From Paracrocinitomix mangrovi (GTDB lineage: Bacteria; Bacteroidota; Bacteroidia; Flavobacteriales_D; Crocinitomicaceae), in NCBI RefSeq assembly GCF_019740355.2, contig NZ_CP091819.1:3162001-3226000 (forward strand): 64,000 nt of DNA, written 5' to 3'. Shown here piece by piece: positions 41,086-49,727 of this stretch. The notes under the pieces are model-generated. The model saw only the letters and a list, made by a program, of their open reading frames with translations, did not search any database and was not told where the DNA came from. Each line of letters opens with the position of its first letter. Position 1 is the stretch's first letter. The position numbers and the translations under genes were made by a program.

Positions 41086-43509
41086 TTAGTTAATCTTTCC
41101 TGTAATTGCTTCTGAAACATTTATAATGTGATCACCAACTTTTTCAAGTGAAGAGAAGATGTTACTAAACACCATTCCGCTTTCCATATTAAAGTCAGGA
41201 TTTTGCATGTTTTCTAAATGCTCTTTTCTCAATTCATTTCGCTTTTTATTGATTTGATGCTCAGCTAATTGAGCAGGTTCAATAGAAACTGCTTCCCATT
41301 CAGCATTTAAGTTATCAATCATTATTTCAAAGGCGCCATCAACCAATTTCAACATCTCAAAAATGTTAGCTCTTTGTTCTGGTAAGAAGTATAATTTTTG
41401 TTCGTCCTTACGCTCCAATGTTTTTGAAATTTGATAGAAAATATCTCCAATTCTTTCCAAATCATTAACTATAGCATTCATTGAACGAACTCTCTGAGCT
41501 GTTTCTGCAGTCATTTCACCTTGAGAAACTTTTGAAAGGTAATTGGCAACCTCAATTTCTACGCGGTCAGTAATCTCTTCATACTTAGCAATTTTCTCAT
41601 GAAGCTTCCCTTTAGCTTTTTTGTTTTGTTCAACCAATAGTTTTTTCATGAAACCTGCCATTCTAGAAGTAATTTCACCAAATTTCGCAACTTCTTTTTT
41701 AGCTTCTAAAATTGAAAGGTCAGGCGTTCCCATCATTCCGGTACCAATATAATCCAGGTGGAATTCTTCATCAATTGCACCTCTAGAACGTACAGTTTTT
41801 TCAGCCAGTTTTACCAATTTAGGTACAAACCAAACTAATACTAATACGTTGGCAATGTTAAATGCAGAGTGGAAAATAGCAAGTCCTTCATTAGCATCTT
41901 CCGGGTTTGAGAAAGGATCACCATCAACAAAATAAGCTACTCCCTTGAGGAATAATTGGAAAACCAGAACGCACCAAATAACTCCAATAATATTGAATAA
42001 AGCATGGATTCTTGCTGCACGTTTGGCATGTACGTTTCCAATTAATGCAGCCAATTGTGCAGTAATAGTAGTTCCAATGTTTTCACCTAAAATCATAGCA
42101 GCTGCTACTTCAAACGGAAGAACACCTCCACCAACAAGTGTCATTGTCAATGCCATGGTAGCGGAAGAGGATTGAATTAATACAGTGGCAAGGGTACCTA
42201 ATCCAATAAACATTAAAGTACCTAATAAGCCAGAATCTTTATAGTCAACAAAGAATTGGATCAAAGGAGAATCCGCTCCAATATCCGGCACATTGTCTTT
42301 TAAGAATCCAAGTCCCATAAAAAGCAATGAGAAACCAATAATTACTGAAGCCCAATTCCTTACCGAACTTTTACCAAAGAACAACAATGGAGCACCAAAT
42401 GCTATTAAAATTAAAGCGTAAGCACCAATATCTACTTTGAATCCAAACAATAAAATCAACCAGGCCGTCATGGTGGTACCAATGTTAGCACCCATAATAA
42501 CCCCGGTAGCCTGTTTAAGATTCATTAATCCGGCGTTTACAAAACTCACTGTCATCACAGTAGTAACTGAAGAAGACTGCACAATTGAAGTAATCCCTAA
42601 TCCGGTAAAAATTCCTGAAATTCTGTTTGAAGTAATTGATCCAAGCATGTTTCTTAATCTTGAACCAGCTGCTTTCTGCAATCCTTCAGACATGATTTTC
42701 ATACCATAAATGAACATCCCTAAAGAACCTAAAAGCACTAATAATTTGAATATTCCCCAGCTACGTTTAGTTTCAAACTTGCTTTCTTTTGACCAGATGT
42801 GTTTGCCATCTACAACTAATCCTATTTTGTAAATGTATTTTTCACCACCAACAAGATCTTTTTCTTTGATTTTTACTTTGTTGATGTCTATTTTATCTTT
42901 TACCTGCCATTTACCTTTTTCAGGATTAAGTTCATTTTGTTTTTTTCCAATTTTGGTATTCCATTGTACTATGTAATAGGCATCAGGAAAATAGCTTAAA
43001 ATTTCACTTAGTGCTCCATATTCAATTGCCCAAAAAATCTCTACGCTTTCTTCTTTTCCTTTGGCACCATTATTTTTAAATATGTTTTGTGAAAGGGTAT
43101 GACAAAGTTCAATTTCGTTGTTATAAACTATTTCATCTTCGCTAGATCCACTTCCAATTTGATAATCAAAAAACAGATTTTCTGTAAGACTTTCAAATAC
43201 AATAGCCGTATCAGCTGCCGGAACAACCTTTTCAATCCAATTTTCTTGATTTTTGGACTTTAACTTAATACCAATAAATGAATCTTCTGTATTATCAGTT
43301 TTCCAGGTAAAAGTAAGATTCCCGGTTTCTAATAATTTAAGTGTTCGATTATCCTCTGCATTGACAAAATTAAAATCAAGGTGCTTTAATTTTAATAAAG
43401 GTTGAGTTTGAATTGTCTGTTGTAGTGAGTCTGCAGGATTAATTTGAGATGCCCCTATAAAAGGTATTAAAAAGGCAATAATTGCAAGAATTATTAATGG
43501 CTTTCTCAT
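41086..43509 (-). CDS. Na+/phosphate cotransporter with extracytoplasmic N-terminal domain and PhoU-like tail
   Basis: An 807-residue membrane transporter of the NptA/YjbB family for phosphate or related anions. A signal-like segment (1-20) and about 230 residues of beta-rich extracytoplasmic material (with FTWKTDNTEDSFIGIKLK and Fn3-like strands) precede the transporter, which is not standard for the family. The Na/Pi domain, about 250-560, shows duplicated QSSS motifs (ITSIVQSSSVTTVMTVSF and VLIQSSSATMALTMTLV), each followed by an (M/L)GxNIGTT loop. About 580-800 is a PhoU-like helical domain. The upstream region has TTAACA-like repeats next to the -7 box, suggesting phosphate control. Confidence 0.92.
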   Translation of the reverse strand: MRKPLIILAIIAFLIPFIGASQINPADSLQQTIQTQPLLKLKHLDFNFVNAEDNRTLKLLETGNLTFTWKTDNTEDSFIGIKLKSKNQENWIEKVVPAADTAIVFESLTENLFFDYQIGSGSSEDEIVYNNEIELCHTLSQNIFKNNGAKGKEESVEIFWAIEYGALSEILSYFPDAYYIVQWNTKIGKKQNELNPEKGKWQVKDKIDINKVKIKEKDLVGGEKYIYKIGLVVDGKHIWSKESKFETKRSWGIFKLLVLLGSLGMFIYGMKIMSEGLQKAAGSRLRNMLGSITSNRISGIFTGLGITSIVQSSSVTTVMTVSFVNAGLMNLKQATGVIMGANIGTTMTAWLILLFGFKVDIGAYALILIAFGAPLLFFGKSSVRNWASVIIGFSLLFMGLGFLKDNVPDIGADSPLIQFFVDYKDSGLLGTLMFIGLGTLATVLIQSSSATMALTMTLVGGGVLPFEVAAAMILGENIGTTITAQLAALIGNVHAKRAARIHALFNIIGVIWCVLVFQLFLKGVAYFVDGDPFSNPEDANEGLAIFHSAFNIANVLVLVWFVPKLVKLAEKTVRSRGAIDEEFHLDYIGTGMMGTPDLSILEAKKEVAKFGEITSRMAGFMKKLLVEQNKKAKGKLHEKIAKYEEITDRVEIEVANYLSKVSQGEMTAETAQRVRSMNAIVNDLERIGDIFYQISKTLERKDEQKLYFLPEQRANIFEMLKLVDGAFEIMIDNLNAEWEAVSIEPAQLAEHQINKKRNELRKEHLENMQNPDFNMESGMVFSNIFSSLEKVGDHIINVSEAITGKIN

Positions 43510-43532: not shown

Positions 43533-43540
43533 CAAATTTA
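43533..43540 (-). promoter_or_regulatory. -7 box of the Na/Pi cotransporter gene
   Basis: The minus strand reads TAAATTTG, a perfect TAnnTTTG, 23 nt upstream of the ATG at 43509. The nearest TTAACA-like repeat begins 23 nt further upstream, about where a -33 element would end, as in activator-dependent promoters. Confidence 0.55.
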
Positions 43541-43563
43541 ATGTAAGTACTGCTCAGTATTTG

Positions 43564-43590
43564 ATAACGTACATTAAGCTTGTGTTAACT
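43564..43590 (+). promoter_or_regulatory. Putative Pho box upstream of the Na/Pi gene
   Basis: Three hexamers, ATAACG (43564), TTAAGC (43574) and TTAACT (43585), repeat with 10 and 11 bp steps. This is the spacing of OmpR/PhoB-family operators, and TTAACA-like repeats are the known B. subtilis PhoP site. It lies between the divergent Na/Pi (minus) and response-regulator (plus) genes. The rest of the 43510-43786 gap holds no gene. Confidence 0.5.
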
Positions 43591-43786: not shown

Positions 43787-44467
43787 ATGAAAAAAACCGT
43801 CCTGATTATAGATGACGAACCTGATATCAGAGTATTGCTAAAGTACAATATTGAAAAGGAAGGATTTGTTGTTGTGGAGGCGTCAAACGGACCGGAAGGA
43901 ATAGAAGTTGCACAAAAGGTTTCACCTGATCTTATTTTATTAGATGTGATGATGCCTGGGATGGACGGAATTGAAACGTGTGAGAAAATCAAAAGTATTC
44001 CTGCTTTGGAAAATACCATTATATGCTTTTTAACTGCTAGAGGAGAAGATTACTCACAATTAGCAGGTTTTGAAGCTGGAGCAGATGATTACATTGTTAA
44101 GCCAATCAAGCCTAAAATTCTAATCAGTAAAATTGTTGCTCTGTTCAGAAGAGTGGATTCTTCAACTGCAAGTTTGCAGCAAGATGACGTAATAGGCTCT
44201 TTGACTTTGGATAGGGAAAAGTATGTAGTTATTAAAAATGATGAAGCTTTGACTTTGCCTAGAAAGGAGTTTGAGTTGCTGTCATTATTAATGTCAAAAC
44301 CCGGAAAAGTATTTAAACGAGATGAAATAATGAATCGCGTTTGGGGAACAGATGTCATTGTGGGTGATCGTACAATTGATGTTCACGTGAGAAAACTAAG
44401 GAAGAAAATTGGAGATGAGTTTATAGAAACCATCAAAGGAGTTGGATATAAATTTGTTAATGTATAA
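43787..44467 (+). CDS. OmpR/PhoB-type response regulator 1
   Basis: A 226-residue two-component response regulator. The receiver domain (1-120) has the acidic pair Asp9-Asp10 in IDDEPD, phosphoacceptor Asp53 in LLLDVMMPG, and Lys105 in YIVKPIKP. The C-terminal winged-helix DNA-binding domain (about 130-226) contains LPRKEFELLSLLMSKPGKVF and GDRTIDVHVRKLRKKIG. No sensor kinase is adjacent. A paralogue at 49065 shares roughly half its residues by eye. Position beside the Na/Pi gene and putative Pho boxes suggest a PhoB-like role, but partner kinase and signal are unknown. Confidence 0.93.
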   Translation: MKKTVLIIDDEPDIRVLLKYNIEKEGFVVVEASNGPEGIEVAQKVSPDLILLDVMMPGMDGIETCEKIKSIPALENTIICFLTARGEDYSQLAGFEAGADDYIVKPIKPKILISKIVALFRRVDSSTASLQQDDVIGSLTLDREKYVVIKNDEALTLPRKEFELLSLLMSKPGKVFKRDEIMNRVWGTDVIVGDRTIDVHVRKLRKKIGDEFIETIKGVGYKFVNV

Positions 44468-44530: not shown

Positions 44531-45760
44531 CTAAAGAGCTTTAGTCCATCCAGTAGTCCATCCTGAATCAGCTCCAGTTCCAGTTCCGTCAACTGCAGCA
44601 GCTCCCATAGTAGCAGCATTTGTAGAATCAGTACCAGTAGTTGCAGAAACAACAATATCAGTAGTAACGTTTGTTGTAGTTACACCAGAAATATCTAACG
44701 TTCCAGCTGTTACATTTGCAACAGTTACATCATGTTGAATATCAATTCCTGTAGCGCAATCCTCAATTAAGATGTTTGAAAGGATACCAGCAGTTCCTTC
44801 TCTTAATTTAATTCCAACTTTTCCAGCTGAAACTCCTCTTCCCATGATTGTAATTTTAGAAAGAGTTGGAGAAGACATTGGTGAAGCAGAGTTATTATCT
44901 CCGTTGTTATCAGCTTCGATACCTCTATCACCAGTTGTAGGATCTTGTTCTACGATCCAGTTTTCACCAGTTCCTGACCATCCGTGAGTCCAGTCAAATG
45001 AATCATCTCCGTTTCCAGTAGACAAAGCATAAGTTAAGCTAACTGTTCCACCAAAGAATTCAAATCCATCATCATTTCCTCTATATGCTTGTAAGTGGTG
45101 TAATGTAGTTCCTGAACCAACTCCGTTAAAAGAGAAACCGTTCAATTCGTTGTTTACAGACAATAATTTACCTGCATATTCAACTCTTACATAACACATT
45201 GTTCCTGAATTATCAGCAGCATCAGTACCACCATAAGTTCCAGTTCCACCTTCACCTTCAGCAGTAGCACCAGTGTTGATTGGAGCATATCCATTTAAGA
45301 TAATTCCTCCCCAGTCTCCAGCAGCTGGAGTAGAAGAAACAGGAGTAAATACGATTGGATCAGTAGCTGTTCCACAAGCGTTAATTTTACCTCCTTGAGA
45401 GATAGCTAAAAATGGTACTGTTCCGTCATCAGCAGTGTAAACTGTAGTACCTGCATCAATTGTTAATGTAGCACCATCACCAACGAAAACACCTCCTGAT
45501 AATAACCAGTTTGAGTTTGCATCTAAAGTGTAGTCCTCAGTTAAAGTCCCAGTGATTTGCTTGTAAACTGTTCCACTGTACTCAACCTCAGTGTACCATG
45601 AAGGGTAAACACAAGGATTGTCCGGATCATCTTTTTTAGCTTCTGGATTGTAGTTTGTTGCATTAACATCTGTACATCCTTTCTTTTTACATGAAGGAGT
45701 AACGAATGCGATTCCTCCTATTAATAGTGCACCAACTATGGCTGTTCTGTTTAATTTCAT
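44531..45760 (-). CDS. Beta-helix-like lipoprotein paired with a TonB receptor
   Basis: A 409-residue lipoprotein with the lipobox VTPSC followed by KKKGCTD. The segment GCTDVNATNYNPEAKKDD is a small motif common at the start of Bacteroidota surface proteins. The body is a Gly/Thr/Asn-rich repeat protein (VFVGDGATLTIDAGTTVYT, GGDWGGIILNG-like strands, NDDGFEFFGGTVSL) compatible with a right-handed beta-helix. It contains no enzyme motif I recognise. It is downstream of the TonB receptor on the same strand but separated by a terminator and by its own repeat-rich operator, so it likely has an independent promoter. A role in phosphate-ester capture is only inference. Confidence 0.8.
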   Translation of the reverse strand: MKLNRTAIVGALLIGGIAFVTPSCKKKGCTDVNATNYNPEAKKDDPDNPCVYPSWYTEVEYSGTVYKQITGTLTEDYTLDANSNWLLSGGVFVGDGATLTIDAGTTVYTADDGTVPFLAISQGGKINACGTATDPIVFTPVSSTPAAGDWGGIILNGYAPINTGATAEGEGGTGTYGGTDAADNSGTMCYVRVEYAGKLLSVNNELNGFSFNGVGSGTTLHHLQAYRGNDDGFEFFGGTVSLTYALSTGNGDDSFDWTHGWSGTGENWIVEQDPTTGDRGIEADNNGDNNSASPMSSPTLSKITIMGRGVSAGKVGIKLREGTAGILSNILIEDCATGIDIQHDVTVANVTAGTLDISGVTTTNVTTDIVVSATTGTDSTNAATMGAAAVDGTGTGADSGWTTGWTKAL

Positions 45761-45830: not shown

Positions 45831-45879
45831 TTATACTTGTGTTAATTAATAGTGACCAGTAATTAATGTTTAGTTAACA
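45831..45879 (+). promoter_or_regulatory. Putative Pho box upstream of the beta-helix lipoprotein gene
   Basis: Hexamers TTATAC (45831), TTAATT (45842), GTGACC (45852, weak), TTAATG (45863) and TTAACA (45874) recur at 11, 10, 11 and 11 bp. The array lies about 70-120 nt upstream of the ATG at 45760 and touches the TonB-gene terminator. The gap 45761-45935 holds no gene. Confidence 0.5.
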
Positions 45880-45935: not shown

Positions 45936-48866
45936 TTATTTCTTGTCTTTCTTCTTTTGAGTAAAGTTGTATGATACAGATAAACTGAAATCAATTCCTC
46001 TTCTGAATTCAGAAACACTTAAGTCTCCACCTACAGGTTGTGTATTTTCTTGTACAACTTTGATATAAGGATTCAATAAGTTTCTAGCTTTAACTCCTAC
46101 AGAGAATCTATCATCAAAAGTAACTTTAGAAATAAAGTTCAATGTGTTAACAGGTAAAGCATATTGATCTCCAATTCCGTTTCCACCTACAGCTACCAAT
46201 CTTCTTCCAAATACATTGTAAGCCAATGCAACTAGGACAGATTTTTTAGCCTCTTTGAAATCTCTTTGGTATCTCAAGTCAACATTAAGTAAGAATGGTG
46301 AAGCTCCTTCTAATGGTCTTCTATAATTTGTACTAATGTTTCCTGCGTCAAGTGTATCAATAGTAACTTGTGTCCACATAAATGAAGCGTTCATTCCAAT
46401 TCCGAAATATTTCAAAAATGATGAATCTCTTTTTTCTGCTTTTACGAAACAATCTAAACTTCTCATATATTCTACTTCAACTCCGGCAACTTGTCCTTGT
46501 TTTGCATTTGAGAAACTAGCTAACTGTCCAGATGCGGTTCCACGCATTGTTTGCTCAATTGGATTTTGCAAGAATTTGTAGAAACCTCCGATTGTGATCA
46601 TTTCACCCGGGCTAGGGTAACGCTCATAACGGAAATCTGCATTGTAGTTAACACCATTTTTCAAAGTATCATTTCCTTGAGCTTTAGTTCCTGAGAAGAA
46701 CAAAGTATATTGGAAAGGAGCTACTTCATTAAACTTAGGTCTTGTCAATGTTTTGCTGAAAGCCAATCTTAAAACGTCTTTTTCAGAAGCTTCATATTTG
46801 AAAATCAAACTTGGTAACAAACCTTGAACAAAATCTGTAGGAACGATAGTGTTGTTGTATTTTGAAGGAGTTGTTTGATCTCTGTTATACACTCTTTGCT
46901 CAGAAAATTCTTTTCTAATACCAGGAATCATCTCCAACTTATTGAATTTGAATTTGGCATCAATGTATGCTCCAATTACATTTTGAGAAGCAACATATGA
47001 AGATCCGAAATTGGCTAACTCATCAATATAGAACAAACCATTTTCGTGATTTTCATCTGTAAAATATTGAGCAGTGTTGTAAATATCTACAGGTTGAATA
47101 CTGTCAGCTAAATTTTTGATATTGTAGTTAAACTGTTTGTAATCAAAATTTCTTCTTTTTGCTTTGTAATCAGCACCTACGTTAAAAGTAATCAACTCTT
47201 CAACTTCGGTATTTCCTCTTTCAGTTTTTACTTCTTTAAATTTCAATACGTATCTAGCATTAGCTTTTGCACTGATCTCATTTTCTTTCAAAATACTAAA
47301 GAATCTGTGATTTTCGTTTACATCAAGTGCATTCCATAAATCGTAAGAATCTGTTTGAGCAGGATCACCTGTATATAAAGCAACCAACTGTCTTCTGTCT
47401 GGTTCTTTACTTCCGGTGATGTTATATGCACCTCTCCAGTCAACTATCAATCTTGCAAAGTCTTTATCATCTTTATGAGTAAAGAATTTGTGTGTTCCAA
47501 TCAACTGATTAACATTCAAGAAATTTTGTTTGTACGTAAATCTTCTTGAATAAACGTAGTACGGATCGTAATCAAAGTGATATCCCCAAGTTTCTCTTGT
47601 TTCATCATTTGATTTGTTTACGAATAATGAATTTACGCTAATAGCATGGTCAGGATTAATTCTGTAGTAGAGATTCAATAATCCTGTTGATGCAGTTTCG
47701 TAATTATACTGATAGACATCATAGTTTAATCTTTCTTCACTTTGAGCGTTGATAATTTTTACAACACCTTCTTGATATTTTAATGAGTTTTCATTTTTCA
47801 ACAAGGCCAAGAATCCAAATCCTTTTGACTTATCTTTTTTGTCAGACATATCAAAGAAGTTTCCTCCAGTAATAGAGAAATTGATGTTTGGTCTTGCAAT
47901 TTTGGAAACGATATCAAAGTTGTTAGAGAAATCTGCTGATTTATCATACTGAGTATTGTACAACAAGTCTGGGAACAAAGTGTTAACTCCAGGAAAAGAA
48001 GTCAATGGTTTTGAATTTGTAAATACTTCAGTTGGAATATTTCTTGTTCCATCATCAAATCCAAAGTAATCAAATTTACCACCTCTGTAAGAGTTGAATG
48101 GTCTGAAAACAGTTTGAGAATTTCCTCCTGTGCTCAATGATACCTTCAAAGTTGGTTTATTGTAAAAACTCTTAGTAGTAATGTTAAAAGCACCACCTGC
48201 AAAGTCTCCGTAGAATTCTGATGACATAACTTTTGAAACTTGAACTGAGCTTACAACATCTGTCGGAAATAAATCCAAAGGAACAACTCTAAAATCTGGA
48301 TCTGGAGAAGGTAATGGTAAACCATTTAAATATGCAACATTATATCTGTCACCTAAACCTCTTACATAAAGTACAGAACCTACTGTAGAAAGACCAGTGA
48401 TTTTTTTCACTGAACCTCCAACATCTCCTTCACCTTTTTGCTCCATCATTTCTGCTGTTTGAACAGCAACTACTTTATCATCTTCTTTGATGTCTTTTGC
48501 AGCTTTAATCTCAGACCCTCCATTTGAAATAGCTCCTTGAACTACAAAAATTTGAAGCTCATTGCTCATTGAAAGATCTTTTGTAAAAGGAGGATTTTCA
48601 CCTTCTTTTACGGTGATTTCTAACGTATCCTTAATTCCGGTATACATTACAACAATGTGATGAACACCTGCAGTTAGGGTCATACTAAAATTACCATCAA
48701 AATCTGTTCTCTGAAATTTCCCATCTTCTAACTCGACCAACTTTGCCATAGCAAGCGGAATAACCTCACCATTCTCAGTTTTGAAAAGATTACCTGATAT
48801 TGTCCCTTCTTGGGCCATTAGGTTGTTTGTTAAAACAACAAATATCAACAGTATTAATGATCTCAT
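45936..48866 (-). CDS. TonB-dependent outer membrane receptor with N-terminal carboxypeptidase-regulatory-like domain
   Basis: A 976-residue outer-membrane transporter. After a signal peptide (1-18, ending LMAQ), a beta-sandwich of the CarboxypepD_reg type covers about 20-100. The plug domain follows (about 135-235, GLSTVGSVLYVRGLGDRYNVAYLNG, FYGDFAGGAFNITTK), then a 22-strand barrel to the end. The substrate is unknown. No SusD partner is present; the beta-helix lipoprotein beyond the terminator may be its surface partner. The neighbouring Na/Pi transporter, PhoB-type regulators and TTAACA-like repeats suggest induction by phosphate limitation. Confidence 0.93.
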   Translation of the reverse strand: MRSLILLIFVVLTNNLMAQEGTISGNLFKTENGEVIPLAMAKLVELEDGKFQRTDFDGNFSMTLTAGVHHIVVMYTGIKDTLEITVKEGENPPFTKDLSMSNELQIFVVQGAISNGGSEIKAAKDIKEDDKVVAVQTAEMMEQKGEGDVGGSVKKITGLSTVGSVLYVRGLGDRYNVAYLNGLPLPSPDPDFRVVPLDLFPTDVVSSVQVSKVMSSEFYGDFAGGAFNITTKSFYNKPTLKVSLSTGGNSQTVFRPFNSYRGGKFDYFGFDDGTRNIPTEVFTNSKPLTSFPGVNTLFPDLLYNTQYDKSADFSNNFDIVSKIARPNINFSITGGNFFDMSDKKDKSKGFGFLALLKNENSLKYQEGVVKIINAQSEERLNYDVYQYNYETASTGLLNLYYRINPDHAISVNSLFVNKSNDETRETWGYHFDYDPYYVYSRRFTYKQNFLNVNQLIGTHKFFTHKDDKDFARLIVDWRGAYNITGSKEPDRRQLVALYTGDPAQTDSYDLWNALDVNENHRFFSILKENEISAKANARYVLKFKEVKTERGNTEVEELITFNVGADYKAKRRNFDYKQFNYNIKNLADSIQPVDIYNTAQYFTDENHENGLFYIDELANFGSSYVASQNVIGAYIDAKFKFNKLEMIPGIRKEFSEQRVYNRDQTTPSKYNNTIVPTDFVQGLLPSLIFKYEASEKDVLRLAFSKTLTRPKFNEVAPFQYTLFFSGTKAQGNDTLKNGVNYNADFRYERYPSPGEMITIGGFYKFLQNPIEQTMRGTASGQLASFSNAKQGQVAGVEVEYMRSLDCFVKAEKRDSSFLKYFGIGMNASFMWTQVTIDTLDAGNISTNYRRPLEGASPFLLNVDLRYQRDFKEAKKSVLVALAYNVFGRRLVAVGGNGIGDQYALPVNTLNFISKVTFDDRFSVGVKARNLLNPYIKVVQENTQPVGGDLSVSEFRRGIDFSLSVSYNFTQKKKDKK

Positions 48867-48891: not shown

Positions 48892-48899
48892 CAAAGTTA
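48892..48899 (-). promoter_or_regulatory. -7 box of the TonB receptor gene
   Basis: The minus strand reads TAACTTTG followed by C, a perfect -7 element 25 nt upstream of the ATG at 48866. The nearest repeat of the putative Pho box starts 34 nt further upstream. Confidence 0.6.
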
Positions 48900-48933: not shown

Positions 48934-48971
48934 TTATCAATGAGTTAATAATGCTTAACATTTAGTTAACA
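48934..48971 (+). promoter_or_regulatory. Putative Pho box between the TonB receptor and response regulator 2
   Basis: Four hexamers TTATCA (48934), TTAATA (48945), TTAACA (48955) and TTAACA (48966) repeat with steps of 11, 10 and 11 bp, the clearest array in the window. It lies in the divergent region between the TonB receptor (minus) and response regulator 2 (plus), so it could control either or both. No gene lies in 48867-49046. Confidence 0.6.
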
Positions 48972-49034
48972 ATAAATATTGAATCTTAATGATTGCATAA
49001 TAAAGGGTAAATGATCTGTTGATAAGGGTGGGGT

Positions 49035-49042
49035 TAAATTTG
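49035..49042 (+). promoter_or_regulatory. -7 box of response regulator 2
   Basis: TAAATTTG matches TAnnTTTG. It is 4 nt before an in-frame ATG at 49047 and 22 nt before the ATG at 49065, the latter giving the usual N-terminus. Confidence 0.55.
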
Positions 49043-49064: not shown

Positions 49065-49727
49065 ATGGAAGGCCTAAAAATTCTGATAGTAGACGACGAA
49101 CCAGATATCGTAGAGATGTTGTCTTACAACTTTGAAAATGAAAAAATGTTAGTTCAAAAAGCACTAAACGGTAGAGAAGCGCTTGAAAAAGCAGAAACTT
49201 TTAAACCGGATGTGATTTTATTGGATGTTATGCTTCCGGATATTGATGGAATTGAAGTTTGTGAACGAATCAGAAATATTGAAGGCCTTAAAGATTCATA
49301 TGTAATTTTCTTGTCTGCAAGAGGGGAAGACTATTCTCAAGTTGCAGGATACAAAGCCGGAGGAGATGATTATGTTGTAAAACCGGTACGTATAAAAATC
49401 TTAAAACATAAAGTGGCAGCTTTTGCTAATAGATTTAAAGTTGGAGATATCTTCTTTGATTCTGATATTTCAATTGACAAAGAAAAATTTGTTGTTTCCA
49501 AAGAAGGAGTTGATCACGTGATTCCTAAAAAGGAATTCGAACTACTTGCTCTATTGATGAGTACTCCGGAAAAAGTGTTTAGAAGAGAGGAAATTTTAAG
49601 AGATGTTTGGGGTGACACAGTAATAGGTGATAGAACAATAGATGTTCATGTTAGAAAATTGCGTGAAAAATTTGGAGATGAAGTTATCCAAACTATAAAA
49701 GGGGTAGGTTACAAATTTGCAGGTTAA
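49065..49727 (+). CDS. OmpR/PhoB-type response regulator 2
   Basis: A 220-residue response regulator, paralogue of the one at 43787. The receiver domain has VDDEPD at 10-15, phosphoacceptor Asp54 in LLDVMLPD, and the conserved lysine in YVVKPVR. The winged helix shows IPKKEFELLALLMSTPEKVF and GDRTIDVHVRKLREKFG. The ATG at 49065 (MEGLKILIVDDEPD) is preferred to 49047 because it gives the standard family N-terminus and a short leader after the -7 box; the alternative would be leaderless. No kinase is adjacent. Its upstream region has the strongest Pho-box-like array, so it may be autoregulated or control the TonB receptor. Confidence 0.92.
   Translation: MEGLKILIVDDEPDIVEMLSYNFENEKMLVQKALNGREALEKAETFKPDVILLDVMLPDIDGIEVCERIRNIEGLKDSYVIFLSARGEDYSQVAGYKAGGDDYVVKPVRIKILKHKVAAFANRFKVGDIFFDSDISIDKEKFVVSKEGVDHVIPKKEFELLALLMSTPEKVFRREEILRDVWGDTVIGDRTIDVHVRKLREKFGDEVIQTIKGVGYKFAG

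Follow-up and report, generated by a model that had tools for sequence, protein, structure and literature searches.

Direct repeats before phosphate-uptake genes in Bacteroidota, very probably the binding site of a phosphate-starvation regulator

The PhoB regulon has already been published for the phylum Bacteroidota, and the Pho-box consensus is known from a review to vary by species. In Bacteroides fragilis, PhoB has been shown to bind in vitro to a pst promoter fragment of 512 bp (PMC3547664), and in Flavobacterium johnsoniae phosphate depletion induces a receptor gene and a lipoprotein gene located beside phoB (fold changes of 8.02 and 9.91, with 3.06 for phoB itself; the values are log2 by the wording of the text, PMC8115612). 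The second of these papers also describes plant-associated Bacteroidetes as prominent in phosphorus mobilisation; its text contains neither 'pho box' nor 'motif', and the main text of the first contains neither 'motif' nor 'consensus'. Pho-box sites have been located bioinformatically at plcP clusters in marine bacteria, in a paper whose accessible part notes no Bacteroidota consensus (PMC4796936). No such consensus was found in the literature searched, in which subscription papers were mostly not searchable, so that a published one may exist. Here we analyse a 64,000-nucleotide stretch of the Paracrocinitomix mangrovi genome (contig NZ_CP091819.1, positions 3,162,001 to 3,226,000; the window), in which an array of TTAACA-like hexamers lies between the divergent genes of a TonB-dependent receptor and a PhoB-like response regulator (response regulator 2). 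Repeats of this kind, set roughly one turn of the helix from each other, stand before phosphate-uptake genes in many members of the phylum and are very probably the binding site of the phosphate-starvation regulator, which would switch the genes on; the array is most likely the Pho box of the Bacteroidota, approximately STTAAYAWWNNNTTAAYAWW. The consensus and the promoter geometry would be new for this phylum, in an operator of a well-known kind.

A six-unit array between divergent promoters

The first-pass annotation of the window had described four hexamers at steps of 11, 10 and 11 bp between the divergent receptor and response regulator 2 genes. Positions and spacing proved exact on re-reading the sequence (TTATCA 48934-48939, TTAATA 48945-48950, TTAACA 48955-48960 and TTAACA 48966-48971, + strand), and the gene coordinates confirm the placement; the four units stand, and the description was incomplete, since a third, weaker pair at 48986/48997 is also conserved. 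Alignment of the intergenic regions of five genomes (P. mangrovi, L003, L005, L006 and L012) showed TTAT/TTAA cores conserved at six places after the receptor -10 block (CAAAG-TA on the + strand), starting at 48934, 48945, 48955, 48966, 48986 and 48997. These form three pairs, each with an 11-bp step, at pair-to-pair distances of 21 and 31 bp, located between the -10 elements of the receptor and regulator genes. The six units take up 36 of the 205 positions of the P. mangrovi sequence and hold 23 of the 41 invariant columns; 7 more are in the receptor -10. The elements of the operator are the following, with scores from the matrix described below:

45936..48866, - strand: TonB-dependent receptor (Plug domain; CarbopepD_reg_2 below its cut-off)
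48892..48899, - strand: -10 element TAACTTTG of the receptor gene, TAnnTTTG type, 34 bp from the array edge, in a conserved alignment block
48934..48950, + strand: pair 1, TTATCA-N5-TTAATA, 11-bp step, score 12.8, TTAT/TTAA cores conserved in the five-genome alignment
48955..48971, + strand: pair 2, TTAACA-N5-TTAACA, 11-bp step, in the five-genome alignment, highest-scoring matrix site in the window, at 23.2 against a 99% control level of 12.28 (region in the training set)
48986..49002, + strand: pair 3, weaker, TTAATG-N5-ATAATA, score 10.2, short of the 99% level; the TTAA/TAA cores are kept in five genomes
49035..49042, + strand: -10 element of the regulator gene, TAAATTTG, at distances of 63 bp (pair 2) and 32 bp (pair 3)
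49065..49727, + strand: response regulator 2, PhoB-like (receiver and Trans_reg_C), listed from 49047

Pair 3 scored between 7.2 and 13.2 in the other four aligned genomes. The start of response regulator 2 is likelier to be 49065 than 49047, because the -10 element at 49035 is too close to the latter; the shorter N-termini of the regulator proteins of relatives are in line with this. The sequence TAnnTTTG is presumably the Bacteroidota -10 consensus. At the corresponding operator of one congener (L298:10460-11131) the divergent gene encodes a receiver-like protein without an NCBIfam match at 1e-20; the array is retained there, as is a distance of 65 bp to the -10.

When a chain is defined by units with at most one mismatch from TTAACA and steps of 10-12 bp, the array is the only chain of at least three units on either strand of the window. 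The 198-bp intergenic region, dinucleotide-shuffled 5,000 times, never gave a 4-unit chain and gave a 3-unit chain 27 times, and the score of the array was reached by none of 3,000 shuffles; among 321 real upstream regions there were 4-unit chains in none and 3-unit chains in two. The result is less extreme at the scale of the whole window, where one of 60 shuffles of the 64 kb gave a 4-unit chain. This site is the only place in the 4,365,762-base genome with the exact sequence TTAAYA-N4/5-TTAAYA-N4/5-TTAAYA. The array scores 22/24 read on the + strand and 19/24 on the - strand, its strand not being absolute because GTTAAC is its own reverse complement.

The 11-bp step at phosphate genes of relatives

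Same-strand hexamer pairs, each unit with at most one mismatch from TTAACA, were counted at spacings of 6-45 bp upstream of several gene groups and compared with the mean of shuffles; the counts exclude loci for which no usable start was available and those receptor-set matches that had a query start beyond residue 35 or fewer than 80 upstream nucleotides. At 11 bp, the first set of loci gave 25 pairs against a shuffle mean of 1.0 for the receptor (28 regions), 18 against 0.55 for the PhoB-like regulator (12 regions), 7 against 0.9 for the lipoprotein (15 regions) and 18 against 1.5 for nptA (28 regions). These groups overlap, as a divergent gene pair has a single region between its members and the receptor set includes all 12 regulator loci. 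In a second set, consisting of 80 loci of the phylum identified by similarity to the receptor, the counts were 25 against 1.4 for the regulator (20 regions; 23 against 1.4 without one duplicate), 19 against 1.6 for the lipoprotein (26 regions), 15 against 3.7 for the receptor family (80 regions; the same counts in 75 without duplicates) and, in 7 nptA regions only, 2 against 0.4. The oprP-like genes, not used for motif discovery, reached 46 pairs against 2.5 (30 regions, some shared with a divergent nptA and two overlapping the three-unit pattern matches given below). The signal was partial at PHO4 (8 against 1.6, 24 regions; in the one case checked, L295, a PhoU-type gene of the DUF47 family precedes PHO4) and absent at recA (2 against 1.6, 30 regions), with a mild excess in the 321 random upstream regions (25 against 11.4). 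The PF12849 genes of close relatives yielded little: 24 of 39 genomes had no match at E 0.001, the matches were of mixed strength, and 1 of 22 regions passed p 0.05.

The pstC upstream regions themselves showed no clear 11-bp peak (4 against 1.25, 30 regions). A same-strand gene lies just upstream in 26 of the 30, and the signal appeared before that gene: 23 pairs at 11 bp against 1.25 in 23 regions from other orders of the class (the 26 minus three with a start near the locus end), a count reached by none of 100 shuffles. By family search 22 of the 23 proteins are PstS-type (the exception is L304); two of the 23 (L313, L326) start inside the gene under the start rule used.

A 24-bp matrix of two units was trained on 98 regions (79 used) upstream of the receptor, regulator, nptA and oprP-like genes of relatives, P. 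mangrovi included, and its 95% and 99% levels were set on the 321 random upstream regions. It reads roughly [CG]TTAACA(T/A)(T/A)NNNTTAACATTG, with T common in place of C. Among groups absent from the training, the 95% level was exceeded by 12 of 23 pstS regions (10 at 99%) and by 23 of 26 and 11 of 15 lipoprotein regions (17 and 8 at 99%); the regulator genes of the new loci reached 18 of 20 (15 at 99%). The values were lower for PHO4 (8/24; 7 at 99%), the wider receptor family (14/80; 10 at 99%) and recA (1/30; none at 99%). Some of the loci tested may come from the same species as training genomes. On both strands of the window four sites exceeded the 99% level (48951, 48930, 43592 on the - strand, and 45859), of which only 45859 is in a region outside the training set; they fall in the three intergenic regions of the cluster, and the three arrays announced by the first-pass annotation are thus real. 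In comparison, a 464-kb sample of the same genome, including two 20-kb stretches also used as control DNA, had 7 such sites, about one per 64 kb. One matrix site of score 20.3 (L406:2189, genome position 3,842,189) lies about 70 bp upstream of a 1,954-amino-acid open reading frame (ORF) with a signal-like N-terminus, possibly a further member of the regulon.

The two-unit pattern STTAAYAWWNNNTTAAYAWW had 64 matches in 39 genomes, compared with 47 for the reversed control. Twenty-five of the 64 were within 3 kb of listed phosphate genes (114 places, from which rows with short or weak matches were left out), a span covering 0.56% of the sequence, where 0.36 matches were expected; the pattern has a large random background and the excess is located at phosphate genes. 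As the pattern was shaped by a matrix partly trained on the same genomes, the enrichment at the receptor, nptA and oprP is partly circular; six of the 25 near matches are at genes of the PF12849 or PHO4 families only, which were untrained. The window site is the sole match in P. mangrovi. The three-unit pattern had 17 matches against 5 for its reversed control, those clearly at phosphate genes being the window site, one at porin-like/PhoU-type genes (L089) and one at porin-like/response regulator genes (L097); another (L099) is near a PF12849 gene, with an unclear relation. With 64 matches against 47, and 17 against 5, the pattern alone was discarded as a genome-wide search tool for lack of specificity. 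Three-unit TTAAYA arrays were also observed about 60-100 bp upstream of moxR-like ORFs (L085, L094) and rpiB-like ORFs (L093, L095), all named by eye.

The first-pass annotation had proposed a matrix scan of related genomes, and would have abandoned its reading if the repeats were not conserved in relatives or if the matrix hit AT-rich intergenic DNA as often as phosphate genes. The 11-bp repeats are conserved among relatives and also in further orders of the class, the matrix favours phosphate genes over random upstream regions, and the short-pattern matches are enriched at phosphate genes.

The distance between array and promoter is ordered at one group of genes above all. Of 80 forward arrays above the 99% level, 20 (17 nptA, 2 lipoprotein, 1 regulator) have an exact TAnnTTTG -10 at a distance of 30-32 bp from the nearest pair on its downstream side, 5 have one at 20-21 bp and 6 at 63-65 bp, compared with a total of 5.4 in shuffles over the whole of 0-80 bp; in the majority of the 80, no exact -10 falls into any of these distance classes. 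The 63-65 bp distance is that of the regulator genes of L003, L005, L012, L018 and L127 (63 bp in P. mangrovi), and the nptA of the window has the 31-bp form. In the 65 arrays reading away from the gene (regions with both kinds were counted in both) the -10 distance is less ordered. For activation by PhoB, structural models speak for a strict distance from the core promoter elements (PMC10294691).

The regulators of the cluster and the rival readings

The window also contains, clustered with the receptor, the following genes and elements, parts of which recur as a cluster in relatives:

41086..43509, - strand: Na+/phosphate cotransporter with PhoU domain (nptA), by family search
43533..43540, - strand: -10 element TAAATTTG of nptA, 31 bp from the second box unit, the distance class of 17 nptA promoters
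43562..43588, - strand: second array, TTAACA, TTAATG, TTATCA, steps 11-10, toward nptA (score 14.8; region in the training set)
43787..44467, + strand: response regulator 1, PhoB-like, by family search
44531..45760, - strand: lipoprotein of 409 amino acids, predicted to be secreted; its gene partners that of the receptor, and neither Pfam nor NCBIfam gave a match at 0.001
45863..45879, + strand: third array, TTAATG-N5-TTAACA, about 100 bp upstream of the 409-amino-acid gene and reading away from it (score 13.6; region outside the training set)

From gene order and type, we infer that the 409-amino-acid protein is the counterpart of the F. johnsoniae lipoprotein. Searches of the P. mangrovi genome at E 0.001 gave no match to PF12849, Porin_O_P or PHO4, and its one PstC match stays under the cut-off (45.8 of 196.45 bits), so that nptA is the only phosphate transporter found in it. 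In one relative a Chromate_transp (PF02417) transporter is encoded inside the phosphate cluster (L297:9310-10470), and in another such a gene (L377:1574-2704) lies 53 bp downstream of a Pho-pattern match; this transporter may belong to the phosphate regulon.

PhoB is the best-matching family for both response regulators, yet below the NCBIfam cut-offs. Both share DRTIDVHVRKLR near the C-terminus, in a region which we take to be the recognition helix, and are expected to read the same box because of it; the four other Trans_reg_C regulators of the genome differ there, and three of these have RprY as best match, below its cut-off. The array is predicted with good confidence to be a compound Pho box for a phosphorylated PhoB-like regulator. 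Its three head-to-tail TTAAYA-like pairs would be bound by dimers of the phosphorylated protein, putatively response regulator 2 and probably response regulator 1 too, and, once bound at low phosphate, the regulator would bring RNA polymerase to two divergent promoters, that of the receptor/lipoprotein pair and that of the regulator gene itself. This reading is based on the sequence and periodicity of the array, its conservation, the association with phosphate genes and the preferred -10 distance, clearest at nptA; from them we infer the identity of the binding protein, that it is phosphorylated, that it activates and does not repress, and that low phosphate is the signal. The Pho-box-like operator proposed by the first-pass annotation gains support from conservation, matrix preference and phosphate-gene association.

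Several observations weigh against the compound Pho box. Response regulator 1 scored 210.2 of the 296.2 bits required by TIGR02154 and 199.7 of the 270 required by NF053854, response regulator 2 scored 177.1 and 163.6, and no histidine kinase gene adjoins either regulator gene in the window, no search for their kinase partner having been made. Matches are often elsewhere: 39 of the 64 two-unit matches are away from the listed phosphate genes, and only 3 of the 17 three-unit matches are clearly at such genes. Below the 95% matrix level were 66 of 80 wider-family receptor, 16 of 24 PHO4 and 11 of 23 pstS regions. The 4-unit score reached p<=0.05 in only 7 of 28 nptA and 1 of 22 PF12849 regions of relatives, in 13 of 30 oprP-like and 2 of 24 PHO4 regions, and in the second set in 12 of 20 regulator, 18 of 26 lipoprotein, 1 of 7 nptA and 12 of 80 receptor-family regions (recA, 1 of 30); since many single promoters are non-significant by this score, the usual site is the 11-bp pair and long arrays are not general. 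The best strand points away from the gene in 54 of 121 regions (18 of 22 for oprP), so the orientation rule seems loose, and the exact -10 at 30-32 bp is confined to a quarter of the forward arrays, nearly all of them nptA. Real DNA at other spacings also exceeds the shuffle mean (2.6 for the receptor, 3.2 for nptA, 5.7 for oprP-like and 16.6 for the control, in a slightly wider window), and the contrast with neighbouring spacings is for this reason the fairer measure: at 11 bp it is at least 8-fold for the receptor, regulator, nptA and oprP-like groups and 1.7-fold for controls. Orthologous promoters, moreover, are not independent, and shared descent is outside what shuffles allow for; the answer to it is the spread over gene families and orders, not a p-value. 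Finally, the TTAAC half-site is also present at RprY-like systems, and the hexamer is therefore not Pho-specific.

This last point supports the strongest rival, a generic OmpR-family operator read by RprY-like or several regulators, for which the phosphate link would be only part of the use. The promoters of kinase genes related to the RprY-like system (30 regions, the kinases being of mixed types and retrieved with a single RprY-like kinase from P. mangrovi) carry TTAACC/TTAACA arrays, with 22 pairs at 10 bp and 9 at 11 bp where 1.5 were expected, so the half-site is not private to phosphate control; the mild 11-bp excess of random upstream regions and the three-unit matches before the moxR-like and rpiB-like ORFs point the same way. 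The generic operator is nevertheless unlikely, as kinase promoters prefer the 10-bp step and phosphate promoters 11 bp, the box adjoins PhoB-like and not RprY-like genes, and none of the 30 kinase promoters exceeded the 99% level of the Pho matrix (5 exceeded 95%), in contrast to the 10 of 23 pstS and 17 of 26 lipoprotein regions. RprY-type arrays were observed at L294:865-951 (genome position about 1,545,400) and at loci L329-L358, mostly reading away from the kinase gene. The distinction between the two boxes might be carried by the step, perhaps with the sixth base. Because RprY-like promoters show a related half-site at a 10-bp step, a tentative extension, less probable than the Pho box itself, is a Bacteroidota spacing code, in which paralogous OmpR-family regulators of one cell would recognise almost the same TTAAC half-site and be kept apart chiefly by the step (11 bp for PhoB-like, 10 bp for RprY-like), the six-unit operator being a phylum-specific Pho box placed for TAnnTTTG promoters. 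The consensus would also allow a clear-cut test of the role of step length in keeping paralogous regulators apart.

Response regulator 2 might instead be a dedicated regulator of the receptor/lipoprotein pair, responding to a signal other than phosphate: it is encoded beside the receptor and scores lower than response regulator 1 on TIGR02154 (177.1 against 210.2 bits). This is very improbable, given that the same box precedes nptA, oprP-like and pstS genes and that the F. johnsoniae receptor next to phoB was induced under phosphate depletion only (PMC8115612). A chance origin, with TTAA runs thrown up by AT-rich intergenic DNA (70% A+T here, and a 4-unit chain in that single whole-window shuffle), was rejected as next to impossible on the intergenic shuffles, the five-genome conservation and the sharp 11-bp peaks before phosphate genes that recA lacks.

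Comparison with known operators

With the consensus supported in several orders, the phosphate regulon would become readable from genome sequence, and the consensus predicts where the published B. fragilis gel shift, with direct binding of a same-phylum PhoB to a pst fragment, and the F. johnsoniae induction act. Compared with the PHO box of Escherichia coli, the unit TTAACAT shares T--CAT with CTGTCAT in register; the core is TTAAYA here and CTGTCA there, up to three pairs are present here, and the -10, where found, is of the TAnnTTTG type and often 30-32 bp away. Of the features of a PHO box, the 11-bp direct repeats are present (with one 10-bp step between two 11-bp pairs at the window site), the position upstream of phosphate-acquisition and regulator genes holds for the groups and not for every member, with recA negative, and the CTGTCAT core is absent, the matrix reading STTAACA. 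The PhoP box of Bacillus subtilis, which we take to consist of TTAACA-type direct repeats with an 11-bp step, as did the first-pass annotation, is likened here by description and belongs to another phylum and regulator. The CtrA sites of alphaproteobacteria, at which an OmpR-family regulator reads TTAA half-sites spaced by 11 bp, are likewise comparable by description and belong to another regulon and phylum. The RprY-like boxes of the same genomes are, like the array described here, TTAAC half-site arrays beside OmpR-family regulators, and differ by a 10-bp step and frequent TTAACC; the window array, with steps 11-10-11 and no TTAACC, does not fit that type.
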